A DNA stretch of 64,000 bases from Candidatus Aminicenantes bacterium (lineage in GTDB: Bacteria > Acidobacteriota > Aminicenantia > Aminicenantales > UBA4085). This document shows positions 1,273 through 61,202 of the stretch, piece by piece. Both the position numbers and the translations under genes were made by a program. Position 1 is the first letter of the stretch, and each line of letters begins with the position of its first letter. The notes beneath the pieces are model-generated. The model searched no databases and was not told the origin of the DNA. It worked only from the letters and a program-made list of their open reading frames with translations. The stretch is from NCBI GenBank assembly GCA_026393855.1, contig JAPKZJ010000090.1, forward strand, positions 1-64,000, read 5' to 3'.

Positions 1273-1388
1273 GGTTTTTTCATTTCCTTGATAGTAAGAT
1301 CCATCTCCCAATTCCGGGAAAAGTCCGCGGTTCGGCGTGTGCCGTTGGGGGGCAACGGTATCATGCTGCGTGAACAGTTCCTTCTATA

Positions 1389-1790
1389 GCCATGATTCTG
1401 GCGAGGGAACAACGCAGCAAGACCGGCCAACGGCCAGGCTTTGCGCGGTCCTCGACGGGACGATTGCTTCAACGGTCCCCGCGAGGGCGAAACCGCGCGG
1501 GTTTAGCTTTTTTGCGCCCCTCTTCGAGGGAACCTGGCTGTGCAGGCGCCGAGGGATGTTTGAGCACGTAATGGTCATCGGGAACGAGACGGCGTGGGAG
1601 ATCGTGCGGATTTGGGAGAGCGATGGTGCGGAGTTCCGTCCTCGCGGGGACCGTCGAAGCGACGTCCCGACGAGGACTGCGAAGCGCTGAGGCGCCGAGC
1701 CAGAGAAGCGCAGGAGGGCGTTAAAAACCCGAAGCCGTCCTCGCGAGGACCGTTGAGGCAACTCTCCTGTCGAGGACGACCAAAGCGTCG
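1389..1790 (+). repeat. Dispersed MITE-like element, copy A (degenerate, three hairpin modules)
   Basis: Most of the gap between 1273 and 1886 is related to intergenic sequence at 12192-12600, 28524-28750 and 50699-51041. All four share the core GGGATGTTTGAGCACG (here about 1553-1568) and the flanking GGCCAACGG block. Copy A contains three forms of the GC-rich hairpin module (1444-1490, 1633-1688 and a degenerate one at 1736-1785). No credible gene lies here; short frames through it have no domain and recur only because the DNA repeats. Bases 1273-1388 show nothing recognisable. Confidence 0.7.
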
Positions 1791-1845
1791 CCGGACCGGA
1801 CTCCGCGACGCAGGCCCTGGAGATGGGAGACGAAGGCGGGGTAAA

Positions 1846-11771: not shown

Positions 11772-12191
11772 AAGGTTTGGCTCGGGGGACGGGGGTTCGC
11801 TCTGGCGGAAATATTTACGCCGTTACGGCTCGGTTTTCTCGGCGGCTCGGAACTCGCGTCCCGCATTCGATCTAACGGACACCGCCCGGGACGCTCAGAC
11901 ATCCTCGCCGGCCGGCCTCATTCCGGGCCGGCTTCCCTCGGCACCTGCCGGAGCCGCATGACGAATCCTCCCCTGTTATAGGGGAGGTAGGAGGGGTAAT
12001 ACCAATAAAAAGAGCCGGAATGCGGCTCCGCATTGGCGATATTTCCGCCCTCGCGACGACGGGCGAGGCGCTGGTCGTTACGAGGACGGCGAAGCGACCG
12101 CATCGGCGCTCACCCCCGCCCCCCTCGTCAAAGTCGAAGAAGCTCTTTGTAATTATCGGATTGAATTTTAAGCGTAATGCTCTTTTATTGG
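11772..12191. other. Gene-free stretch with hairpins and a degenerate hairpin module
   Basis: No credible coding region. Visible structures are a perfect 8-bp stem (CCTCCCCT … AGGGGAGG, 11967-11987), a second inverted repeat (AATGCGG CT CCGCATT, 12019-12034), and a degenerate copy of the GC-rich hairpin module at about 12045-12097 (CCTCG…CGAGG arms recognisable). Together with the following element this makes about 880 bases without a gene. Confidence 0.6.
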
Positions 12192-12600
12192 TTCTTCGCC
12201 AAATTCTGGGGAGACCAAGCGGTTCCGGGTGTCGGCCAACGGCCAGGCTTTGCGCGGTCCTCGATGGGACGATTGCTTCAACGGTCCCCGCGAGGGCGAA
12301 ATCGCGAAGGAAAAGCTTTTTATTCCGAAGGCGCACAACACTTTTATTCTCATTGATATCACCACCCCTACCCCGCCTTCGAAGGCGGGGATATGTAAGC
12401 GCCTTCGGCTGCATGTGCCGAGGGCTGTTTGAGCACGCGACGATCCAACGGAATCGAAAAGGAGTGGGTGGTCAAGAAGACCGGGTGATCAAGAATGCGC
12501 AGTTCCGAGGCGCCGAAGAGAACTGTGGGAAAAGGCGAGAAGAGGCCGAAGCCGCCGGGCTGATACTCCGAACCGCCCTCCCCGGAATTGGCCGATGACC
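12192..12600 (+). repeat. Dispersed MITE-like element, copy B (with terminal inverted repeats)
   Basis: About 409 bp ending 4 bases before the dehydratase stop codon. The ends form an imperfect inverted repeat: the left end (12192-12237, with CGCCAAATTCTGGGGAG and GTCGGCC) matches the complement of the right end (12557-12600). The interior shares the GGGCTGTTTGAGCACG core (about 12421-12436) with copies A, C and D, and carries one hairpin module (12252-12298). A palindrome CCCCGCCTTCGAAGGCGGGG (about 12371-12390) followed by AAGCGCC resembles the second repeat family and may be a nested insertion. No transposase frame is present. Confidence 0.72.
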
Positions 12601-12604
12601 TTTA

Positions 12605-19452: not shown

Positions 19453-19511
19453 TTGTAGCGTTTTCCCTCCGTCGGGCGTATAAAAGAATGAGTGCGGAGG
19501 GCGCTATGAAG
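19453..19511 (+). repeat. Upstream block duplicated with the paralogous genes (copy 1)
   Basis: The 59 bases before and into the first paralogue (TAGCGTTTTCCC … GGCGTATAAA … GGAGGGCGC-ATGAAG) recur at 20427-20484. A TATAAA hexamer (19478-19483) is conserved in both copies, so this is probably the duplicated promoter and ribosome site. No good -35 is visible. Confidence 0.6.
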
Positions 19512-20411
19512 CACGTCCGTTCGTCCGCCGCTTTTTCCAGCGATATCCGTCTCGGTAAGGGTGCGCTCGGCTTGGCGCTTGCGATTCTCGCCGTTTCGGG
19601 CGGCTTTCTTTTCAGTCGGCCTGCGCAAGAGGCGCAGGACCCTGTCCTGACGGCGCTTCTGGGCAAGCTGTCCGCCTACGCCGCCCGGCTGGAGGGCTCG
19701 GTCCTGGACTTCGTCTGCCGGGAAGAGATCGCGGAGAGGATCGATCCCGCCCTCGACGTCAGGGCGGCTTCGCCGCTCGTCCCCGATGCTTTCCGCGACC
19801 GGATCTATGGAAAACTAATCTCGGCCAAGAATCATTATGTCTACGACTACCAGTGTGTGCGTGGAAAGAACGGACTCGTCCGAGAAACCAGGACCCTTCT
19901 TGACGATAATGGGAAAAAGACGAATGTCCCCGACGCGAAGCTCAAGACGGAGGTTTTTGTCTTCGGCATGCCGCTCCTGGGGCCCGTCGGGATCTTCGCC
20001 GAACGCTTCCGTCCGTTCTACGACTACAAGATCACCGGCCGGGAGAAAGTCGACGGCAAACCCGCTTTGATCATCGAGGCTACGCCTACGGCGGAGCGGC
20101 CCGGCGCCACTAACCTCTACGGCAAGGCTTGGGTTGGAGCTGAGGACGGGGAGATTCTCAAGATCGAATGGAGCGAGTCGAGGGTCGGCAGACGCGAGAT
20201 CTTCGAGGAGCGCGCGGAAAAGTACCAGATGCAGCCGCGCATCACCCTGCGTTCGGAGTTCAGCGCCGAGAAGAACGGCATCCGGTTCCCCAGCATGCTT
20301 TGGATGGAGGAGGCCTACCTGAATACGCGCGGCCGGGCCTTCATTCGATCCACGACAACCGTCGCCTACAAGGACTTCAAGTTCTTCACCGTCGAGGTCG
20401 ACGTCCGCTAA
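19506..20411 (+). CDS. Secreted protein of unknown function (tandem paralogue 1)
   Basis: 301 residues with an N-terminal hydrophobic segment (about 20-37). Conserved features shared with the next gene are YAARLEGSVLDFVCREEI (about 50-67), YDYQCVRGKNGLVRETRTLL, FGMPLLGPVGIFAERF, TNLYGKAWV, GEILKIEWSESRVGRR and the C-terminal VAYKDFKFFTVEVDVR. The two cysteines in FVCRE and YQCVR are present in both copies and may pair. ATG 19506 is chosen because GGAGG lies 5 bases upstream; an ATG at 19488 sits almost on the -10. Similar proteins are typical of Acidobacteriota. The fold may be a lipoprotein-carrier-like beta sheet, which is only a guess. Confidence 0.7.
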   Translation: MKHVRSSAAFSSDIRLGKGALGLALAILAVSGGFLFSRPAQEAQDPVLTALLGKLSAYAARLEGSVLDFVCREEIAERIDPALDVRAASPLVPDAFRDRIYGKLISAKNHYVYDYQCVRGKNGLVRETRTLLDDNGKKTNVPDAKLKTEVFVFGMPLLGPVGIFAERFRPFYDYKITGREKVDGKPALIIEATPTAERPGATNLYGKAWVGAEDGEILKIEWSESRVGRREIFEERAEKYQMQPRITLRSEFSAEKNGIRFPSMLWMEEAYLNTRGRAFIRSTTTVAYKDFKFFTVEVDVR

Positions 20412-20426
20412 CGTACAGCTCCATGC

Positions 20427-20484
20427 TGTAGCGTTTTCCCCGCGCTCGGCGTATAAAGTAATGAGTGGGGAGGGCGCCATGAAG
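20427..20484 (+). repeat. Upstream block duplicated with the paralogous genes (copy 2)
   Basis: Matches 19453-19511, including TATAAA (20452-20457) and GGAGG 5 bases before the ATG. A small hairpin (TACAGC … GCTGTA, 20414-20430) precedes it and may end the first paralogue's transcript. Confidence 0.6.
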
Positions 20485-21405
20485 TTCATCTGTTTGAGCC
20501 CCGTTTTCATCAATCGCCGCAATCGTTTTTTGGGCTCGTTCTGCCTGACCGCGGCCGTTTTCGCCGTCGCGGGCGGCTTTCTCTTCAGCCGGCCCGCTCA
20601 GGAGGCGCAGGAACCCGTCCTGGCGAAGCTCCTGAGCAAGCTGTCCGCCTATGCCGCCCGGCTGGAGGGCTCGGTCCTCGATTTCGTCTGCCGGGAGGAA
20701 ATCTCCGAGACGATCAACTACGCCCTCGACCAAGTCCGTTCACGGCCCGATATCATCTCGAACTGGGCCGTCGGAGGCGCCTTCGGGATGTCTTGGGTCG
20801 GTCGGCCGGCGGCCAAGGAGAAAGACGCCTACGTCTATGATTATCAATGCGTGCGGGACAAGAACCGGGCCGTGCGCGAAACCAGGACCCTGCTGAAGGA
20901 AAACGGAAAGCCGGCCAACGAGCCCGGGACGGGGCTTAAGACCCAAAATTTTGTCTTCGGCACGCCGCTTTTGGGACCGGTGGGCATCTTCGCCCAACGC
21001 TTCCAATCCGCGTATACCTATCGAATCATCGGACACGATAAGGTCGGGAAGACGCCGGCCGTGGTCATCGAAGCCGAGCCGCTCTATGATATGCCCGGGA
21101 CGACCAACCTCTACGGCAAGGCCTGGGTCGGGCCCGACGACGGCGAGATCCTCAAGATCGAGTGGAGCGATGCAAGGATCGGCAACCGCGCCGTTTTCGA
21201 GGAGAGGGCCGGGCGCTACAAGCTCAAGCCGCGCATCACCCTGCGTTCGGAGTTCAGCGCCGAGAAGAACGGCATCCGTTTCCCGAGCAAGCTGTGGATC
21301 GAGGAAGCCTACGTCACCGAAAGAGGCCGGGCCTATGTCCGCTCCGAGACGACCGTGGCCTATACGGACTTCAAGTTCTTCACCGTCGAGGTCGACGTCC
21401 GTTGA
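20479..21405 (+). CDS. Secreted protein of unknown function (tandem paralogue 2)
   Basis: 308 residues, clearly homologous along its length to the preceding gene: YAARLEGSVLDFVCREEIS, YDYQCVRDKNRAVRETRTLL, TPLLGPVGIFAQRF, TNLYGKAWVGPDDGEILKIEW and the same C-terminus. It contains an extra insert (about residues 85-115) relative to paralogue 1. The nucleotide sequence is near-identical in places (for example the ITLRSEFSAEKNGIRFP codons), so the duplication is recent or under gene conversion. Both genes have their own ribosome site (GGAGG). Function is unknown; export is predicted from the N-terminal hydrophobic segment. Confidence 0.7.
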   Translation: MKFICLSPVFINRRNRFLGSFCLTAAVFAVAGGFLFSRPAQEAQEPVLAKLLSKLSAYAARLEGSVLDFVCREEISETINYALDQVRSRPDIISNWAVGGAFGMSWVGRPAAKEKDAYVYDYQCVRDKNRAVRETRTLLKENGKPANEPGTGLKTQNFVFGTPLLGPVGIFAQRFQSAYTYRIIGHDKVGKTPAVVIEAEPLYDMPGTTNLYGKAWVGPDDGEILKIEWSDARIGNRAVFEERAGRYKLKPRITLRSEFSAEKNGIRFPSKLWIEEAYVTERGRAYVRSETTVAYTDFKFFTVEVDVR

Positions 21406-27494: not shown

Positions 27495-28523
27495 ATGACC
27501 CGAAACAAGCTTATCGCCGCCCTGTCGGCCTTCCTTCTCCTGGCCGGAGTCCTCTCCGCCCAAAGCCTCGACATCCCTTCCCACAGCTGGGGCCTGAGCT
27601 TCGGCAACTCCAAGAATTTCGCCGGCCTGCGCTTCAACTACCGGGACCGCGGCGTCGAGCGGGTGCGCGGGATCAACGTCACCTTGTGGCAGCCGTATGA
27701 GAAAGACACCAACGACTCCGTGATCGAGGGCCTGTCGCTCGGCCTTATCCCCGGCGGCGGGACGCTCCGAGGCGTCCAGATCGGGCTGTTGGGTGTGGCC
27801 GGCATAAAAGACATCCGCGGCGTCTCGTTCGGGCTGCTGGGTGTGGGGACGGGCGGATCGCTCGTCGGGATCAACGTCGGCGGCCTTGGTGCCGGCGCCG
27901 GCGGGAACATTGCCGGGATCAACATCGGCGGGCTGGGCATGGGCGCCGGCGGCAACGTCTCGGGCATCAGCATAGGCGGCCTGGGACTCGGCGCGGGCGG
28001 CAACCTCTCGGGCCTCAACATCGGGGGCTTGGGCCTGGGCGCGTCCGAGAACATTTCCGGCATCAGCATCGGCGGCTTGGGGCTCGGCGCGGGCAAGAAC
28101 CTGTCCGGCCTGAACATCGCCGGCCTCGGTCTCGGGGCGGGCGGCAAGGTTTCCGGCCTGACCATCGGAGGCATCGCCGTCGGTGCGGGAGAAGTCCTCG
28201 GCGGGATCAGCATCGCCGGCGTCGCGGTCGGGTCGAAAGAGATCCGCGGCCTGGCCTTTGCCGGGGCCGTAGTCGGGGCCAAGATGATCAAGGGCATCGT
28301 CTCGGCGGGCGGCTGCACCCTGATCGCCGACGGCGGCGAGCTGCGGGGCGGCGCGGTGGCGCCGGTGAACTGGATCAAAGGCACCCAGACTGGCGTGGTC
28401 GTGGGGATCGTCAATTACGCCTGGAGCCTCAAGGGCGTCCAGATCGGCCTGGTCAACATCGTCCGGGACAATCCCTCCGGGCGGAAAGTGTTGCCGCTCG
28501 TGGCGCTTCGCCCGTCGCTGTGA
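27495..28523 (+). CDS. Surface protein with nine 16-residue glycine-rich repeats (LA_2272-like)
   Basis: 342 residues with a signal peptide (hydrophobic 7-22). Residues about 125-265 consist of nine tandem units of 16 (one of 15) residues with the pattern N/S-IGGLGLGAGGN-[ILV]-SG-[IL]. Flanking segments (GVQIGLLGV, GVQIGLVNIV) match the short repeats of the LA_2272/LA_2273 surface-protein group described in Leptospira. The layout predicts a narrow beta-solenoid with hydrophobic and glycine faces, exposed at the outer membrane. Corresponding 48-base DNA repeats are diverged at third positions, so selection keeps the protein pattern. No enzymatic motif is present. Confidence 0.75.
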   Translation: MTRNKLIAALSAFLLLAGVLSAQSLDIPSHSWGLSFGNSKNFAGLRFNYRDRGVERVRGINVTLWQPYEKDTNDSVIEGLSLGLIPGGGTLRGVQIGLLGVAGIKDIRGVSFGLLGVGTGGSLVGINVGGLGAGAGGNIAGINIGGLGMGAGGNVSGISIGGLGLGAGGNLSGLNIGGLGLGASENISGISIGGLGLGAGKNLSGLNIAGLGLGAGGKVSGLTIGGIAVGAGEVLGGISIAGVAVGSKEIRGLAFAGAVVGAKMIKGIVSAGGCTLIADGGELRGGAVAPVNWIKGTQTGVVVGIVNYAWSLKGVQIGLVNIVRDNPSGRKVLPLVALRPSL

Positions 28524-28750
28524 GGGCGGCTTCGGGTTTTTCACGCTTTTTTGCGCCTTTCTTCTCGGCGCCTGCGGAACTCCGCATGCTTGTTTTAGCT
28601 GACTTGCAAGGCCACCCACTCCGTTTCTTTTCCGACTGATTGTTGCGTGCTCAAACATCCCTCGGCGCCCGCTGGGTTCCCTCGAAGATATGCGCAAAAA
28701 AAGCTAAACCCTCGCGATTTCGCCGTTGGCCGAAAACCCTGCCGCTTCGC
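28524..28750 (-). repeat. Dispersed MITE-like element, copy C (short)
   Basis: Directly follows the stop of the repeat-protein gene. On the minus strand it reads GGCCAACGGCGAAATCGCGAGG, a T-rich GCTTTTTT tract, then the shared GGGATGTTTGAGCACG core (complement at 28646-28661), and ends in AAAAACCCGAAGCCG like copy A. It lacks the internal hairpin modules of copies A, B and D. Bases up to 28775 hold nothing else. Confidence 0.65.
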
Positions 28751-31698: not shown

Positions 31699-31795
31699 GC
31701 CGCGATTCTACCGGATTCCCGACTTAGCGTGAAGCGCCCGTACGCGGACTTTGCAGAGTTGACTCTTTCTGTCCGCCGCGATATCTTCCGGCCTG

Positions 31796-31895
31796 GATAC
31801 ATTCGTGGCGCCATACTCCCGATTTTCAAATCGGGGCTATAAGCGCCGCTCAGTATTAACCCTGTTAATACCCCGGGCTCGGCTTCCGCCCCGTC
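31796..31895 (+). repeat. Second dispersed repeat family, copy 1
   Basis: About 100 bases in the 290-base gap between dmsA and the hexokinase. It shares with 60976-61076 the block AAGCGCCGCTCAGTATTA (identical 18 bases) flanked by two hairpins: CCCGATTTTCAAATCGGG (about 31818-31835) and a CCCCGGGC-starting arm. The rest of this gap shows nothing else recognisable. Confidence 0.7.
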
Positions 31896-46017: not shown

Positions 46018-49000
46018 ATGAATTGTTCCCCAATGAACGAAGAACGCCACTCCGCCGTCTCAGCTTTGACGCCGTGCTTGACGGCATGGTTTGGCTCCCA
46101 CGCGGTGGGCGATTCCGGTCGCTTGGCCGGAGAGCTCCTCGCCGTTCTGGAGGAAGCCGTCTCGGCCGGGCCGTTCGATCCCGCCGAGGCCGCGATCGTC
46201 CGAAAGGCGCTGTTTGAAACCGGCCGGCGGCCTTTCCTGCGCGCTTTGGGCGATGACGCCGCCCGCGCCCGTTGGGCCGAGTCCGCCCTGCGGCTCATCC
46301 GCGGCGTCGATTACTCCCTTCTCGAGATGTTCCAGGCCCGGGTCGAAGCCCATCCGGAGAAGGCGCTCTTCCGGGACGCCTCCGGGCCGGCGCCCGCCGA
46401 ATGGAGCTATCGTCAGGTGGAGCGCAAGACGCGGGAGATCGCGGCCGCTTTCTTCCATTTGGCCGCGGCGGACGAGCCGGCCGGGCCGCCGCGCGTGGCG
46501 CTGTTCGCCGACAACGGTGTGGAAAACGCCTGCGCCGACCTGGCCTGTCTTTTCTACGACATCCTGGACACGCCGATCAACACCCATTTCAGCCAAGACA
46601 ATCTGATCGACATCTTCGACCGCCTGGGCATCACCCTGGCCGTGACGGACTCCCCGGCCCGGCGGCTCCTGCTCGAACAAGTCCGGGAAAAGACGGCCGT
46701 CCCGTTCCGGATCGTCGCTCTCGACGCGGGGACGGCCGACGAAAGCCGGGGCGTTCCGTTCTTGGGCGAGGTCTGCAAACGGCTCGGTGCGGCCGAAATC
46801 GACGCTCGGCTCGCCGGCCGCCGGCGGTTCGCCCTCGACGAAGTCGCGACCGTCCTTTTCACTTCGGGCAGCACGGGCCGCCCCAAAGGCGTCTCTTTTT
46901 CGATCTACAACCTCACCGCCAAGCGGTTCGCCCGGGCGGCGGCTTTGCCGGACGTCGGCGAGGATGAAGTCTTTCTCTGCTTCCTGCCGCTCTATCACAC
47001 CTTCGGCCGCTACCTGGAGCTCCTGGGGTCGATTTATTGGGGCGGGACCTACGTCGCCTCGGGTAATCCCTCGCCCGAGCGCCTGTTCTCCCTGTTCCCG
47101 CAGATCCGGCCGACCGGATTCATCAGCGTGCCCATCCGCTGGGCCCAGCTCTACGAGGTTTGCCTGGAGGCGATGGAAGCGGCCGGACCCGGGGCGGACC
47201 CGGCGGTCGTCCTGCGACGGATCGTCGGCCCGGATCTGCGCTGGGGGCTTTCCGCGGCCGGGTTTCTGGACCCCAAGGTTTTCCGGTTCTTCGAGAAAAG
47301 CGGCATCGCCCTCTGCAGCGGCTTCGGGATGACCGAGGCCACGGGCGGCATCACCATGACCCCGCCCGGCCGCTATGTCGACAATGCCCACGGCCTCCCT
47401 CTGCCCGGGATCGAGGCCCGGCTGACCGGAGAAGGGGAGCTCGAAATCCGGGGGGCCTATGTCGCCCGGTATCTCGACGCGGCTCCGCCCGGCGGCGTCG
47501 TGCCCGTCCCCGGCGAGCCTGGCGGGGACGAGTGGCTGGCCACCGGGGATGTCTTCGAAATTTTGCCCAATGGGTATTATCGGATCGTCGACCGGATCAA
47601 GGATATCTACAAGAACACCCGAGGTGAGACGGTCGCTCCGCTCAAGGTCGAGAGCAAGTTCGCCGGAGTGCCCGGCATCAAGCGCACCTTCCTGGTCGGC
47701 GACGGCCGTCCCCACAACGTCCTGTTCATCGTCCCCGACTACGGCGACGCCGTCTTGCGCGCGGCCCTGGACGCCGACGGCGAGCGGGCGTATTACCGCC
47801 GCATCGTCGGCGCGGCCAACCTGGACCTGGCCCCCTACGAACGGGTCGTCAACTTCGCCGTCCTGGATCGCGATTTCGAGGAGGCCCGCGGTGAGCTGAC
47901 GACCAAAGGGTCGTACAACCGCAAGCGGATCGAGGCCGGGTTCGCGGCCGAGATCGAGGCGCTTTACCGCAAGAGCTTCGTCGAGCTGGAGTACCACGGC
48001 TGGCGGGTTCGCATTCCGCACTGGTTCTACCGCGACCTGGGCGTGCTTGAGGACGAGATCTTCTTCGTCGGCGATTTCCTGTTTGATTCGTTCCGCAAGA
48101 CCATGCTGCCGCTGGCGGTCGAGGCCGGCTCGGGCCGACGGCTGATCGGGGACCTGGAGTACCGGATCGAAGGCGCAGTCATCGACTTGGGCGTGTTCGC
48201 CCGCCAGCCGCGTCTCTGGTTCGGCAACCCCGCCCTGGCCCGCTTCTGCCCTTGCCGGGCCGGCTGGGACGTGCCGGCCGAAAGCGTCGCCGAACAGGTC
48301 TTTCTGCCGGCGTCCCGCGACCGGATCTACGGAACTGACGACGTCACAGCCCCGCTTCGAGTCCGGGAGGAGAGCCTCCTCGCGGCCCACAAGCTGGCGT
48401 CCATGGCCCTCTTCGGCGAAACGCCCGAAGCCCGGGCCGCCCTGATCAGGATCGAGGGTCTGCTGGCCGCGCCCGACCTGCGGATCGCGCCGCTGCTTCG
48501 CGCCCGGCTCGAGGCCTCGGCCGGGCATCCGGAGGAGTCGATTCGTTGCGACGCTTACCGCATCCTGCTCCTCGACGAGCCGAACCCCGAGTACGACCGG
48601 GCCCTGACCTCTTTCGTCCATTCGGGGCTGAGCTTTCTCAACGAAGCCTCGATCGAGGCCATCTCTTCTTCGCCGCTCGGGCCGGAGCGCTTCGACGCCC
48701 TCCGTCGTCGCATGGCGGCCTACCGGGAAAGCCTGGCCGGAGGCGGAGAGGAGGCCGAGCCGGCCCGAGCCCAGTTCCTCCGGATCCTTCGGCTGTTCGT
48801 CGACTTCGCCCGCTATCACCCGGACTACTACCGCCATGTCCGGGCCGAGCTGGCCAGCTGGGCTCTGCATAGGGTCGATCCCGAGCTCTCGCGCTCGGCG
48901 GTCTCCCGGCTGAGCGAGCTCGATTCGGACCACGAGGGTTGGCTCGGCCGGCGGCTGCGGCCGCTGTCCCCGCAGGAGTGGGAGGCCCGCCTGGCCTTTG

Positions 49001-50682
49001 ACGAAGGACTGCCGGCGGCCGAAGTCGGCCGCATCCGGCGCATTCTGACGGACCCGACATTCCTGCCGCAGTCGATCGGGCTCGTCTTCGGCCGCGAGGG
49101 CTTCGATCCGAGGGAGATCCCCGCCGACGGCATCTGGGTCTCCCGCCTGCCGGAGTATGACGGCCGGCCCAGCGTCCGCGTCCATGTCCGGAGCGCGTCC
49201 GGCGAGGCCTTCGATCTGCGGCTCATTACGGCGGACGATCTGGGGGTCCAACCGGAGGCCGAGACGCTGTTCTGGCACCTGGCTATCGCCAACTACCCGT
49301 TAGGCGAGCCCATCCTGCCGCGGATCGGGAGCCTCCGGCCGGGCCTCGGCGCTGTGGCCATTCTCTACTCGGGACGGCTCAACGTCTGGGAGAGGCTCCG
49401 GCTCCGTGACGGAGACGAGGAGCCGGAGCGCTCCGTGCTGGGGCCGGGCCGTTGGCGGACGCTGGCCATCGAGGGTATGGCCGCGTTCTTCAAGGCCTGG
49501 CGGTTTTCCGGCGGGCGGATCGTGCCGGGACTCCCGTCCCCGACCAACGTCATGGTCGCCGAAGCAAGCTCGCCGAGGCCCGCGATGATCCACTCGCTGG
49601 CGGGCTGGCGAGCCTACGAGGGGCCGCTGTCTCTCGTCCGGCCGCTTATCCGCAATTTTTTCCTCAAGACCGCGGCCCATTATCCGTGGCTGGCTGGGCG
49701 TCAGGATGTCCGGTGGCTCTTCGACGCCTGCTACGAGGCGCTGGGCTACGCCGAGGCCTCGGCCTTTTTCCAAGCCCTTGCGGCGGCCCTGGAGAAAGAA
49801 CCCGTCGCGGGCCTCGAGGGCGTCGCCTTGGCCGAGTCTTTGAGCGCTTATCTGTCCGAGTTCCGATCCCATTACATGATCCCTCTGCCGGCGGTCAACG
49901 CCGTCCGCCGGTACAAGGAATGGGAGCTGCAAAACGCCCCGTCCGGGGCGGCCGATCGGGAGGGCAAGGTGTTGGAGGTCCTCGGCGTCTTCGGCCTGGA
50001 CCGGTACCCCGAAGCGGCGCGCTACTATCTCTACCGGCAGACTTATTTCGCGGGCGCCTCCGAGGCCGTCCTGGCGGCTTTCGACAAGTTGCTCGGGCGG
50101 ATGACGGAGGAGGTCAAGACGCCGGCCGTGCATTTCGCGGAGCTCTCCGATCTCCAGGCGGCTCTGGCCGACGAAGCCGATAGGGCGGTCTTCGCCAAGA
50201 TGGTCTTTCCCCGGGCCGCGGCCGGCCGAAGCTTCGATATCCGGCCGTTCGGGGAGGACCGCGTCAAGCAGGTTATCGTCCGGTCCGCCGTTTCCGACCG
50301 GAAGGGCGAATCTTATGAATTCGCCGAAACGTTCGACCCGGCGGAGATCGGGCAGCTCTACCGGCTTTTCTATCTCGAGAACTATCCCAAAACGATCTCT
50401 CAGCAGGATCGTCATTATATCCTGCGCGACTCCCGGGAGCGCGTGATGGGCGGGCTGTGTTACCGGCTGATGTCGGCCAATGCCGCGTTCATCGACGGCA
50501 TCGTGATCGCCTCGGCCTTGAAGGGCAGGGGCTTGGGCGGGGCGATGATCGAAGAGTTCTGCCAGCGGATGAGCGCGGCCGGAATCCATGTCATCCTGAC
50601 CCACTTCTATCTGCCCGGATTCTTCCTCCATCAGGGATTTCGGGAGGACAAGCGCTGGGGATCGCTCGTCCGAGAATTGTGA
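46018..50682 (+). CDS. Giant AMP-binding ligase / GNAT acyltransferase fusion (1554 aa)
   Basis: A single uninterrupted frame. Residues about 100-640 form an adenylate-forming (ANL) domain: A3 loop LFTSGSTGRPKGVSF (about 279-293), A5 GFGMTEATGG (about 435), A7 ATGDVFEILPNGYYRIVDRIKDIYKN (about 507-532), and a conserved lysine in LTTKGSYNRKRI. Residues about 660-1430 are not recognisable, but contain WVSRLPEYDGRPSVRVHVRS and a long helical part. Residues about 1440-1554 are a GNAT domain (ASALKGRGLGGAMIEEFCQRM). It likely activates a carboxylic acid and acyl-transfers it, perhaps in lipid or natural-product modification. ATG 46033 is an alternative start. Confidence 0.75.
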   Translation: MNCSPMNEERHSAVSALTPCLTAWFGSHAVGDSGRLAGELLAVLEEAVSAGPFDPAEAAIVRKALFETGRRPFLRALGDDAARARWAESALRLIRGVDYSLLEMFQARVEAHPEKALFRDASGPAPAEWSYRQVERKTREIAAAFFHLAAADEPAGPPRVALFADNGVENACADLACLFYDILDTPINTHFSQDNLIDIFDRLGITLAVTDSPARRLLLEQVREKTAVPFRIVALDAGTADESRGVPFLGEVCKRLGAAEIDARLAGRRRFALDEVATVLFTSGSTGRPKGVSFSIYNLTAKRFARAAALPDVGEDEVFLCFLPLYHTFGRYLELLGSIYWGGTYVASGNPSPERLFSLFPQIRPTGFISVPIRWAQLYEVCLEAMEAAGPGADPAVVLRRIVGPDLRWGLSAAGFLDPKVFRFFEKSGIALCSGFGMTEATGGITMTPPGRYVDNAHGLPLPGIEARLTGEGELEIRGAYVARYLDAAPPGGVVPVPGEPGGDEWLATGDVFEILPNGYYRIVDRIKDIYKNTRGETVAPLKVESKFAGVPGIKRTFLVGDGRPHNVLFIVPDYGDAVLRAALDADGERAYYRRIVGAANLDLAPYERVVNFAVLDRDFEEARGELTTKGSYNRKRIEAGFAAEIEALYRKSFVELEYHGWRVRIPHWFYRDLGVLEDEIFFVGDFLFDSFRKTMLPLAVEAGSGRRLIGDLEYRIEGAVIDLGVFARQPRLWFGNPALARFCPCRAGWDVPAESVAEQVFLPASRDRIYGTDDVTAPLRVREESLLAAHKLASMALFGETPEARAALIRIEGLLAAPDLRIAPLLRARLEASAGHPEESIRCDAYRILLLDEPNPEYDRALTSFVHSGLSFLNEASIEAISSSPLGPERFDALRRRMAAYRESLAGGGEEAEPARAQFLRILRLFVDFARYHPDYYRHVRAELASWALHRVDPELSRSAVSRLSELDSDHEGWLGRRLRPLSPQEWEARLAFDEGLPAAEVGRIRRILTDPTFLPQSIGLVFGREGFDPREIPADGIWVSRLPEYDGRPSVRVHVRSASGEAFDLRLITADDLGVQPEAETLFWHLAIANYPLGEPILPRIGSLRPGLGAVAILYSGRLNVWERLRLRDGDEEPERSVLGPGRWRTLAIEGMAAFFKAWRFSGGRIVPGLPSPTNVMVAEASSPRPAMIHSLAGWRAYEGPLSLVRPLIRNFFLKTAAHYPWLAGRQDVRWLFDACYEALGYAEASAFFQALAAALEKEPVAGLEGVALAESLSAYLSEFRSHYMIPLPAVNAVRRYKEWELQNAPSGAADREGKVLEVLGVFGLDRYPEAARYYLYRQTYFAGASEAVLAAFDKLLGRMTEEVKTPAVHFAELSDLQAALADEADRAVFAKMVFPRAAAGRSFDIRPFGEDRVKQVIVRSAVSDRKGESYEFAETFDPAEIGQLYRLFYLENYPKTISQQDRHYILRDSRERVMGGLCYRLMSANAAFIDGIVIASALKGRGLGGAMIEEFCQRMSAAGIHVILTHFYLPGFFLHQGFREDKRWGSLVREL

Positions 50683-50698
50683 AACGCGGATTTATTGA

Positions 50699-51041
50699 TC
50701 TTTGCCGAATTCCGGAAAGGCAGCTCGGAGTATCGGCCCGGCGGCTTCGGCCTCTTCTCGCCTTTTCCCACAGCTCTCTTCGGCGCCTCCAGCGCTTCGC
50801 AGTCCTCGTAGGGACGTCGCTTCGACAGTCCCCGCGAGGGCGGAACTGCGCATTCCAGATCGCCCGGTCTTCAAGGCCCCCCACTCCTCTTCGATTCCTA
50901 CAGATGGTCGCGTGCTCAAACAGCCCTTGGCGCCTGGCCAGAGCCAGGTTCCCTCAGAGAGCTATGGAAAAAGGCGCCGGCCTCGCGATTTCGCCGTTGG
51001 CCGATACCCCGAACCGCCTGATTTCACGGAATTCGGCGAAG
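50699..51041 (-). repeat. Dispersed MITE-like element, copy D (best terminal inverted repeats)
   Basis: About 343 bp filling most of the 489-base gap before the regulator gene. The ends 50699-50738 and 50999-51041 are imperfect inverted repeats: CTTTGCCGAATTCCG…GTATCGGCC on the left matches the complement of GGCCGATACC…CGGAATTCGGCGAAG on the right. The interior contains the shared core (complement at 50911-50926) and one hairpin module (50792-50844). No transposase is encoded. Bases 51042-51099 show nothing else. Confidence 0.75.
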
Positions 51042-51099
51042 TCCATTTTGTTTCTTACCGCTAGGCAAATCGTCGGGAATGGAATGGCAAAAATAGTAC

Positions 51100-59369: not shown

Positions 59370-60977
59370 ATGAGCCCATCTCCGACCGATCCCGTCTTTG
59401 ATTATGGTCCGGACAAGGCCGCCTACCGCAAGGTCGCGGGTTCCGGCGCCCGCCGGGTCGTCTGCGGCGGCCGCGCCTATTGGAGCATCCCGGCCGGCGT
59501 CCTGACCCGCCTGGCCCGCGAGGCCTTCGAGGACCTCGCTTTCTACCTGCGGCCGTCGTTCCTGGAGAAGCTGGCCGCGATCCTCAAGGACCCCGCCGCC
59601 TCCGACAACGACCGTTTCGTGGCCCGGGCGCTCCTGCGCAACGCCGTGATCGCCGCCGAGGGCGAACTGCCTTTATGTCAGGACACGGGGACGATCAACG
59701 TCTTCGGCCGCAAAGGCCATCGCGTCCTGACCGACGGCCAGGACGAGGAGGCTTTGGTCCGCGGCGCGGCCGGCGTTTACCGGGAGCGCAATCTGCGCTA
59801 TTCGATCATGGCCCCTGCGACCGTCCTGGACGAAACCAACACCGGCTCCAACCTGCCCGCCCAAGTCGACCTGGCGGCGGCCGAGGGAGTCGAATACAAG
59901 TTTCTCTTTATGGCCAAGGGAGGCGGCTCCTCGAACAAGACTTTGCTCTTTCAAGAGACCAAGGCCCTGCTCAACGAGAAAAGCCTGCAGGCGTTCCTGG
60001 TCGAGAAGATCGCGGCCCTCGGGGTCGCGGCCTGCCCGCCCTATCGGGTCGCGGTCGTCGTCGGCGGGCTCTCGCCCGAAATGACGCTCAAGACCGTCAA
60101 GCTTGCTACGGCCGGCTACCTGGACGGCCTGCCGCGGCGCGGCTCGAAACGGGGCGGCGCCTTCCGCGATCGGGCCTGGGAAGAGCGAATGCTCGCGATC
60201 GCCCGCGAGACCGGCCTGGGGGCCCAGTTCGGCGGCCGCCACCTGGCCCATGAGACCCGCTTCATCCGCCTGCCCCGCCATGCCGGCTCCTGCCCGGTCG
60301 CGATCGGGGTGGGCTGCAACGCCGACCGGAACCTCAAGGCCAAGATCACGGCCGAGGGCGTCTTCCTAGAGGCTGTCGAGCGCAACCCTGCCCGATTCCT
60401 CACCGGCGCCGAAGCAGGGGCGCCCGCGGGTACTCCCGTCGATCTCAACCGGCCCATGCCCGAAATCCTGAAAGCCCTGGCCGCTCTGCCCGTCGGGACG
60501 CTGGTCCGGCTGTCCGGCCCTCTCGTCGTAGCCCGCGACATCGCTCATGCCCGATTGAAAGAGCAGCTCGATAAGGCGGGCAGCGTCCCTGACTATCTGA
60601 AAAAGCACCCCGTTTACTACGCGGGCCCGGCCAAAACGCCGCGCGGATACGCCTCGGGCAGCTTCGGGCCGACCACGGCCCAGCGGATGGATGTCTACCT
60701 GGCCGACCTCATGAAGGCGGGCGGCTCGCTCGTGACTCTGGCCAAGGGCAATCGCGCGGCAGGCGTCACCGAGGCCTGCAAGACCTTCGGCGGCTTCTAT
60801 TTGGGGACGATCGGCGGTGCCGCGGCCCTGATGGCCAAGGAGTTCATCGTCGCCTCCGAAGTCATCGATTACGCCGATCTGGGCATGGAAGCCGTGCGCC
60901 GCATCGTCGTCAAGGATTTGCCGGCCTTCGTCGTCTGCGACGACAAGGGCGGCAACCTCTACGCGCGGCGAGCTTGA
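59370..60977 (+). CDS. Class I fumarase-family hydratase, alpha-beta fusion (probable mesaconase)
   Basis: A 535-residue oxygen-sensitive 4Fe-4S hydro-lyase. The N-terminal fumarase alpha part has LPLCQDTGTINVFG (about 104-117), APATVLDETNTGSNLPAQVD, AKGGGSSNKTLL and RHAGSCPVAIGVGCNADRN; Cys in LCQDT, SCPVA and VGCN are candidate cluster ligands. The C-terminal beta part has GSFGPTTAQRMDVYLADLM and GTIGGAAALMAKE. Clostridial mesaconase uses two separate subunits; here they are fused, as in many fumarases. Context after mal makes mesaconate to (S)-citramalate hydration the likely job, with fumarate a possible second substrate. Confidence 0.9.
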   Translation: MSPSPTDPVFDYGPDKAAYRKVAGSGARRVVCGGRAYWSIPAGVLTRLAREAFEDLAFYLRPSFLEKLAAILKDPAASDNDRFVARALLRNAVIAAEGELPLCQDTGTINVFGRKGHRVLTDGQDEEALVRGAAGVYRERNLRYSIMAPATVLDETNTGSNLPAQVDLAAAEGVEYKFLFMAKGGGSSNKTLLFQETKALLNEKSLQAFLVEKIAALGVAACPPYRVAVVVGGLSPEMTLKTVKLATAGYLDGLPRRGSKRGGAFRDRAWEERMLAIARETGLGAQFGGRHLAHETRFIRLPRHAGSCPVAIGVGCNADRNLKAKITAEGVFLEAVERNPARFLTGAEAGAPAGTPVDLNRPMPEILKALAALPVGTLVRLSGPLVVARDIAHARLKEQLDKAGSVPDYLKKHPVYYAGPAKTPRGYASGSFGPTTAQRMDVYLADLMKAGGSLVTLAKGNRAAGVTEACKTFGGFYLGTIGGAAALMAKEFIVASEVIDYADLGMEAVRRIVVKDLPAFVVCDDKGGNLYARRA

Positions 60978-61076
60978 TATATTCGCGGTGCCGAACCCCG
61001 ATTTTAATATCGGGGAAAGAAGCGCCGCTCAGTATTAGCCCTGGATATATACCCCGGGCTTCAGCCCGGGGAGTCG
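60976..61076 (+). repeat. Second dispersed repeat family, copy 2 (possible operon terminator)
   Basis: Begins at the mesaconase stop codon. Two hairpins: CCCCGAT … ATCGGGG (60996-61015) and CCCCGGGC TTCA GCCCGGGG (61052-61071). Between them is AAGCGCCGCTCAGTATTA, identical to 31796-31895. The stable second hairpin may stop transcription of the methylaspartate operon, though no T run follows. Confidence 0.72.
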
Positions 61077-61202
61077 AGCGAATTAAAAAAGACAGGAAAA
61101 TCTAAGGCGATCACAAGGGAAAGAGAGAACAAGGTTCGAACTGGAACGCCCGCCAAGCGCGGCCGGAAGCCGAACCCTTACACCCAGTCGCACAAAACTT
61201 CC

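Follow-up and report, generated by a model that had tools for sequence, protein, structure and literature searches.

A mosaic MITE family with arm-matched palindromic interiors in Candidatus Aminicenantes

The palindromic element at 50.7 kb belongs to a mosaic MITE family. It lies in a window of 64,000 nucleotides, the whole stretch of DNA analysed here (C90:1-64000), taken from a 3.68-Mb MAG of 144 contigs. The family comprises about 100 copies and very probably consists of non-autonomous cut-and-paste (DDE-type) transposable elements. A non-autonomous element with terminal inverted repeats (TIRs) had been proposed in the first-pass annotation of the window. That reading holds, given the shared ends, an 8-bp target duplication and the empty sites in congeners. 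New beyond it are the mosaic, arm-matched palindromes, the conserved boxes in the interior, and ends that are common to other interiors across families.

The first-pass annotation listed four copies that have a common interior, lie in both orientations and occur between genes, and all of this was confirmed (Table 1). Its boundaries for two copies (50699-51041 and 12192-12600) were close to the exact ones, while a third (1389-1790) missed both ends. The copy placed at 28524-28750 proved to be truncated and to extend further: it starts directly after the stop codon of the ORF 27495-28523 and retains only one end, the right one, which is a divergent TIR variant. The right end of the 12.2-kb copy is located 3 bp from the end of a PALP gene. 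The end motif proposed for this copy and the 50.7-kb copy does not apply to both: GCCGAATTCCG occurs in the 50.7-kb copy alone, both ends of which bear the same private CCGAATTCC variant, and the 12.2-kb copy has GCCAAATTCTG / GGCCAATTCCG. Likewise, a shared core exists, but the proposed GGGATGTTTGAGCACG is the core of only two copies and GGGCTGTTTGAGCACG is commoner. The inverted repeats, put at about 40 bp, are at full strength over ~24 bp; complementarity extends to ~48 bp and then continues imperfectly through nearly the whole element. The 50.7-kb copy has a fold z-score of -7.5. In a BLAST search it matched 40 places in the genome, and the best matches were 70-94% identical, none of them near-identical.

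Table 1. Positions of MITE copies, their parts and Y1-linked repeats
Feature	Position	Strand	Description
MITE copy in focus	50696..51045	core on minus strand	350 bp, arm type A + module X; TIR scan and pairing
Left terminal inverted repeat, 50.7-kb copy	50696..50719	+	starts TGATCTTTGCCGAATTCCGG...; from TIR scan
Right terminal inverted repeat, 50.7-kb copy	51022..51045	-	TIR scan
Internal hairpin module X, 50.7-kb copy	50790..50840	-	CCCTCGCGGGGAC..CGAGGACTGCGAAGCGCTG, ~53 bp; present or absent among otherwise similar copies
Interior box 1, 50.7-kb copy	50910..50932	-	CGCC(A/G)AGGGCTGTTTGAGCACGC; 97% pairwise identity, 19 aligned copies
MITE copy	1298..1836	+	539 bp, arm type C, modules X + V
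MITE copy	12190..12601	+	412 bp, module Y replaces left inner arm
Truncated MITE copy	28524..~28770	-	arm type C, without left end; boundary approximate
Y1-linked short repeats AATAGGGGTACAGTATACGTAAATCCC / AATAGGGGTCAGGTCTTAAGATATAAG	L226 1124-1165, 2170-2208; L207 906-942, 1296-1333; L230 815-850, 2030-2060

Targeted stretches of the genome were read. In the genome, a 20-mer terminal motif has 153 matches (80 forward and 73 reverse), compared with 8 (4 + 4) for the reversed control pattern. The core GGGNTGTTTGAGCR has 84 matches, 42 per strand and hence without strand bias, and its control has none; G002, a congener, has four matches, and the other genomes of the class are at background (0-2). 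We aligned the ends, derived a weight matrix and matched ends that face each other, which yielded 42 copies, and 57 distinct ones of ~50-691 bp once more loci were added. The family end derived from this alignment is GG(T/A)TC(T/A)TC(T/G)CCCA(A/T)(T/C)TCCGGG. The first-pass annotation had suggested looking for shared boundaries, target-site duplications and an autonomous transposase; the first of these are seen in the 57 paired copies with facing ends.

The 8 bp outside the ends are mostly A or T. When the left and right flanks of the 57 copies were compared in a fixed register, columns 1-8 agreed in 53-67% of cases, versus 27-42% for flanks taken from different copies, and agreement at columns 0 and 9 was at the control level. 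Since the match is confined to columns 1-8, the target duplication is 8 bp long. Matching flank runs of at least 7 bp occur in 15 of 42 copies, versus a mean of 2.5 and a maximum of 7 in shuffled pairings, and exact duplications include TTTTATTT (L132), AAATAAAA (L006) and TATTCTTT (L026). In the complete copies of the window the duplications are imperfect or lost; these copies are older, and the decay of their duplications counts against the transposon reading.

A duplication of the same length was found independently in order-mates with the same ends. The end motif has 85 matches in a genome of another family of the same order (G076) and approximately 10-16 in each of six relatives of its genus. 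Together these genomes contain 23 paired copies with an 8-bp A/T-rich duplication, whose mean identity is 5.35 of 8 positions versus 2.83 after shuffling (maximum of 5000 shuffles, 4.43). The copies of this group number in the dozens (for example, L305-L323) and have palindromic interiors unrelated to those of the elements described here. The combination of the same ends with unrelated interiors shows that one end system carries different folded interiors across lineages. A whole-element match to the 50.7-kb copy was absent from the plasmid and phage collections. A wider family based on the motif TGTTTGAGCGNAGCGAGTTCCG was considered and rejected: the motif has no matches in viral contigs, a shorter form gave three unrelated matches, and plasmids gave matches at chance level only.

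Two copies of the window, 1298-1836 and 50696-51045, have no counterpart at the orthologous intergenic sites of the congeners G001 and G002. The same neighbour genes are present there, and the aligned blocks are ~40-180 bp apart versus ~450-700 bp with the element. These two copies were inserted since the split from the two congeners; the empty-site junctions are too diverged for reading the original target. According to rough gene calls, the copies lie between co-directional (28), convergent (14) or divergent (8) genes, and stop codons are located at a median distance of 12 bp from the element. Many copies adjoin an existing terminator-like hairpin. The intergenic placement could be explained by the target, because A/T tracts in a G+C-rich genome lie mostly past stop codons or in the T-runs of terminators. 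Targeting of A/T tracts would then be enough to account for the placement, and no function would be needed.

The copies are nested quasi-palindromes that come in size steps: ~50 bp with the ends only (L125, L210), ~120 bp (L124, L131, L132, L200, L217), ~290-300 bp, ~340-350 bp where module X is present, and as much as 691 bp in copies that carry X, Y or V. The inner arms are of three sequence types, and the 35 copies in which both arms could be typed are AA, BB or CC, with no mixed pair. In 19 aligned copies without module X, the long hairpin has 96% of its cells paired, and 35 of 87 pairs show compensatory change, compared with 3-10 when the partners are slid by 1-3 columns. The two ends within a copy are also alike, at 16.8 of 20 positions versus 15.1 by chance (maximum of 5000 permutations, 15.9). 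The signal from strictly private variants is the weaker one, with a match on the two sides in 4 of 41 cases (control mean 0.35, maximum 5); that from variants in at most three copies is stronger, with 21 of 79 matched (control mean 2.6, maximum 13). Much of the covariation is therefore common to lineages of copies.

Internal hairpin modules were found at alternative positions. Module X is present or absent in arm types A and B alike, so the modules appear to move between copies. We rejected X, Y and V as independent repeats: once overlapping loci and unpaired copies are taken into account, nearly all their matches fall inside the elements, in a sample biased to element loci.

The interior contains two boxes, CGCCGAGGGCTGTTTGAGCACGC and CGGAGTTCCGAGGCGCCGA, with 97% pairwise identity. 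The sequence outside them is at 65-83%, including 73-74% for the ends and 76% for the loop between the boxes, in an alignment of copies picked by a core filter that favours box 1. Copy L215, which fails this filter, still has the greater part of each box, with a different loop between them. For a pure MITE it is unusual that boxes are more conserved than ends, and this counts against the MITE explanation. The conservation of the boxes exceeds what a MITE would require.

One rather unlikely explanation is that the mobile element has a selected interior, either a structured RNA or a protein-binding DNA, so that the boxes and the covarying arms reflect function and not only hairpin repair. It would account for the contrast between the boxes and the remaining sequence, for the compensatory changes, and for the presence of both boxes in the congener G002 too. 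However, the window has no Rfam match at the gathering score, and a scan of two copies revealed no site resembling a promoter or terminator. Nor does the core show a clear orientation preference relative to genes (8 same, 12 opposite). Box 1 and the loop are entirely missing from copy L130 and from the short copies, and the G076 copies combine the same ends with unrelated interiors. The similarity of the middle part could also be maintained by gene conversion between copies. A more elaborate scheme seems improbable as well: the interior would be a structured nucleic acid with a selected function of its own (a small RNA or a protein-binding hairpin) on a MITE chassis, the ends being common across families of the order and each lineage loading a different folded cargo.

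Under the preferred reading of a non-autonomous DDE-type element, a transposase acting in trans would bind the ~22-bp ends and the element would insert into 8-bp A/T tracts. The interiors may then diversify by hairpin-driven replication errors, with the arms corrected against each other, which would produce the covariation. The ~50- and 120-bp forms could result from hairpin loss through slippage between short direct repeats. Exchange between copies may also affect modules X, Y and V.

No transposase is encoded inside the copies, as the first-pass annotation stated; they are 50-691 bp long, with palindromic interiors and no coding capacity. The ends of ISL3 insertion sequences and of the MITEs derived from them start with GG(C/T)TCTT, and their 8-bp duplications are often in A/T-rich DNA. 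The GG-starting ends and the 8-bp duplication seen here are alike, but no ISL3 transposase (PF01610) was found in this genome (G000) or in the congeners G001 and G002, and membership is not claimed. The same three genomes have no IS1595 (PF12762) and no IS256 / Mutator-type (PF00872) transposase. Regions around ends without an obvious partner were fetched, and an autonomous element with the same ends was found in none of them (30 regions of this genome, 19 of G076 and one of G075). The only distant pair of ends, in G076 (contig C4) and 2.1 kb apart, was discarded: judged by sequence, they enclose an AAA-type (sigma-54-type) regulator-like gene and a truncated element, and no transposase.

The autonomous partner suggested for search was thus not found in the sampled loci of this genome or among the three tested transposase families, which counts against the transposon reading, although a MAG of 144 contigs may lack a multicopy IS. 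Probably the enzyme has been lost, is absent from the assembly, or belongs to a family outside ISL3, IS1595 and IS256. Since the best matches of the 50.7-kb copy include none that is near-identical, the family may have lost its enzyme.

The copies are very unlikely to be REPIN-like elements that a Y1 (RAYT) transposase mobilizes in single-stranded form. As in REP/REPIN-RAYT systems, palindromic intergenic repeats in high copy number coexist here with Y1 transposases, and three Y1_Tnp genes were found in this genome and likewise three in G002. However, Y1 enzymes are not known to make target duplications, and the 8-bp duplications observed here largely refute this explanation. The long terminal repeats are a further difference from REP/REPIN-RAYT, and the Y1 genes examined are associated with other repeats. 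In this genome, a different short repeat, AATAGGGGTACAGTATACGTAAATCCC or AATAGGGGTCAGGTCTTAAGATATAAG, flanks two of the three genes (L226, L230) in place of MITE ends, and at the third (L228) no queried repeat unit was found. At another locus, L207, a MITE copy lies between two of these Y1-linked repeats.

A second repeat, unit Z, consists of two palindromes, CCCCGATTTTAATATCGGGG and CCCCGGGCTTCAGCCCGGGG, and occurs in the window at 31793-31879 and 60973-61100 and in L023 at 2369-2471. In G002 it is present in dozens of places and adjoins two of the three Y1 genes (L227, L231). Unit Z and the Y1 genes of G002 look like a RAYT-REPIN system.

That the copies are transcription terminators spread by recombination rather than transposition is equally hard to credit: they hug stop codons, and most full-length copies have T-tracts in each of their arms (32 and 31 of 35), but a terminator-like site is absent from the two window copies scanned, many copies already lie beside a terminator-like hairpin, and recombination would not yield 8-bp duplications outside the ends.

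Bacterial MITEs such as Correia/NEMIS, RUP and ERIC are ~100-200 bp long, most of them with TA at the termini (PMC2229807, Table 1). The elements described here are similarly short, non-coding and intergenic, with terminal inverted repeats, a target duplication and a strong hairpin. In contrast to those MITEs, their ends start with GG, the duplication is 8 bp, and the length ranges from ~50 to 690 bp via stacked modules. The pneumococcal BOX element (boxA-boxB-boxC) varies in size by tandem copies of boxB (PMC3049150). Both families are composite and modular, vary widely in size, and have terminal repeats and a target duplication, and in both settings repeat families insert into one another (PMC3049150). 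Compared by architecture, they differ in that the variation here lies in nested hairpin arms of matched types and in modules at alternative positions.

The family is a well-resolved example of bacterial MITEs from an uncultured lineage, and its footprint has been measured. One set of ends occurs with unrelated folded interiors in two bacterial families, and the arms stay complementary while their sequence changes. The copies form a natural data set for studying the correction and shortening of genomic quasi-palindromes, and for asking which transposase acts on the ends. Such intergenic hairpins also confound both assembly and the annotation of non-coding RNA.

Two other features of the window were noted. 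At 19454-21405, a gene of ~310 codons and the region upstream of it are duplicated in tandem; the copies share 72-80% identity and are spaced 973-994 bp apart. An ORF of 1554 amino acids (46018-50682) has an AMP-binding domain at its N-terminus and a GNAT acetyltransferase domain at its C-terminus, and its middle part has no Pfam match.
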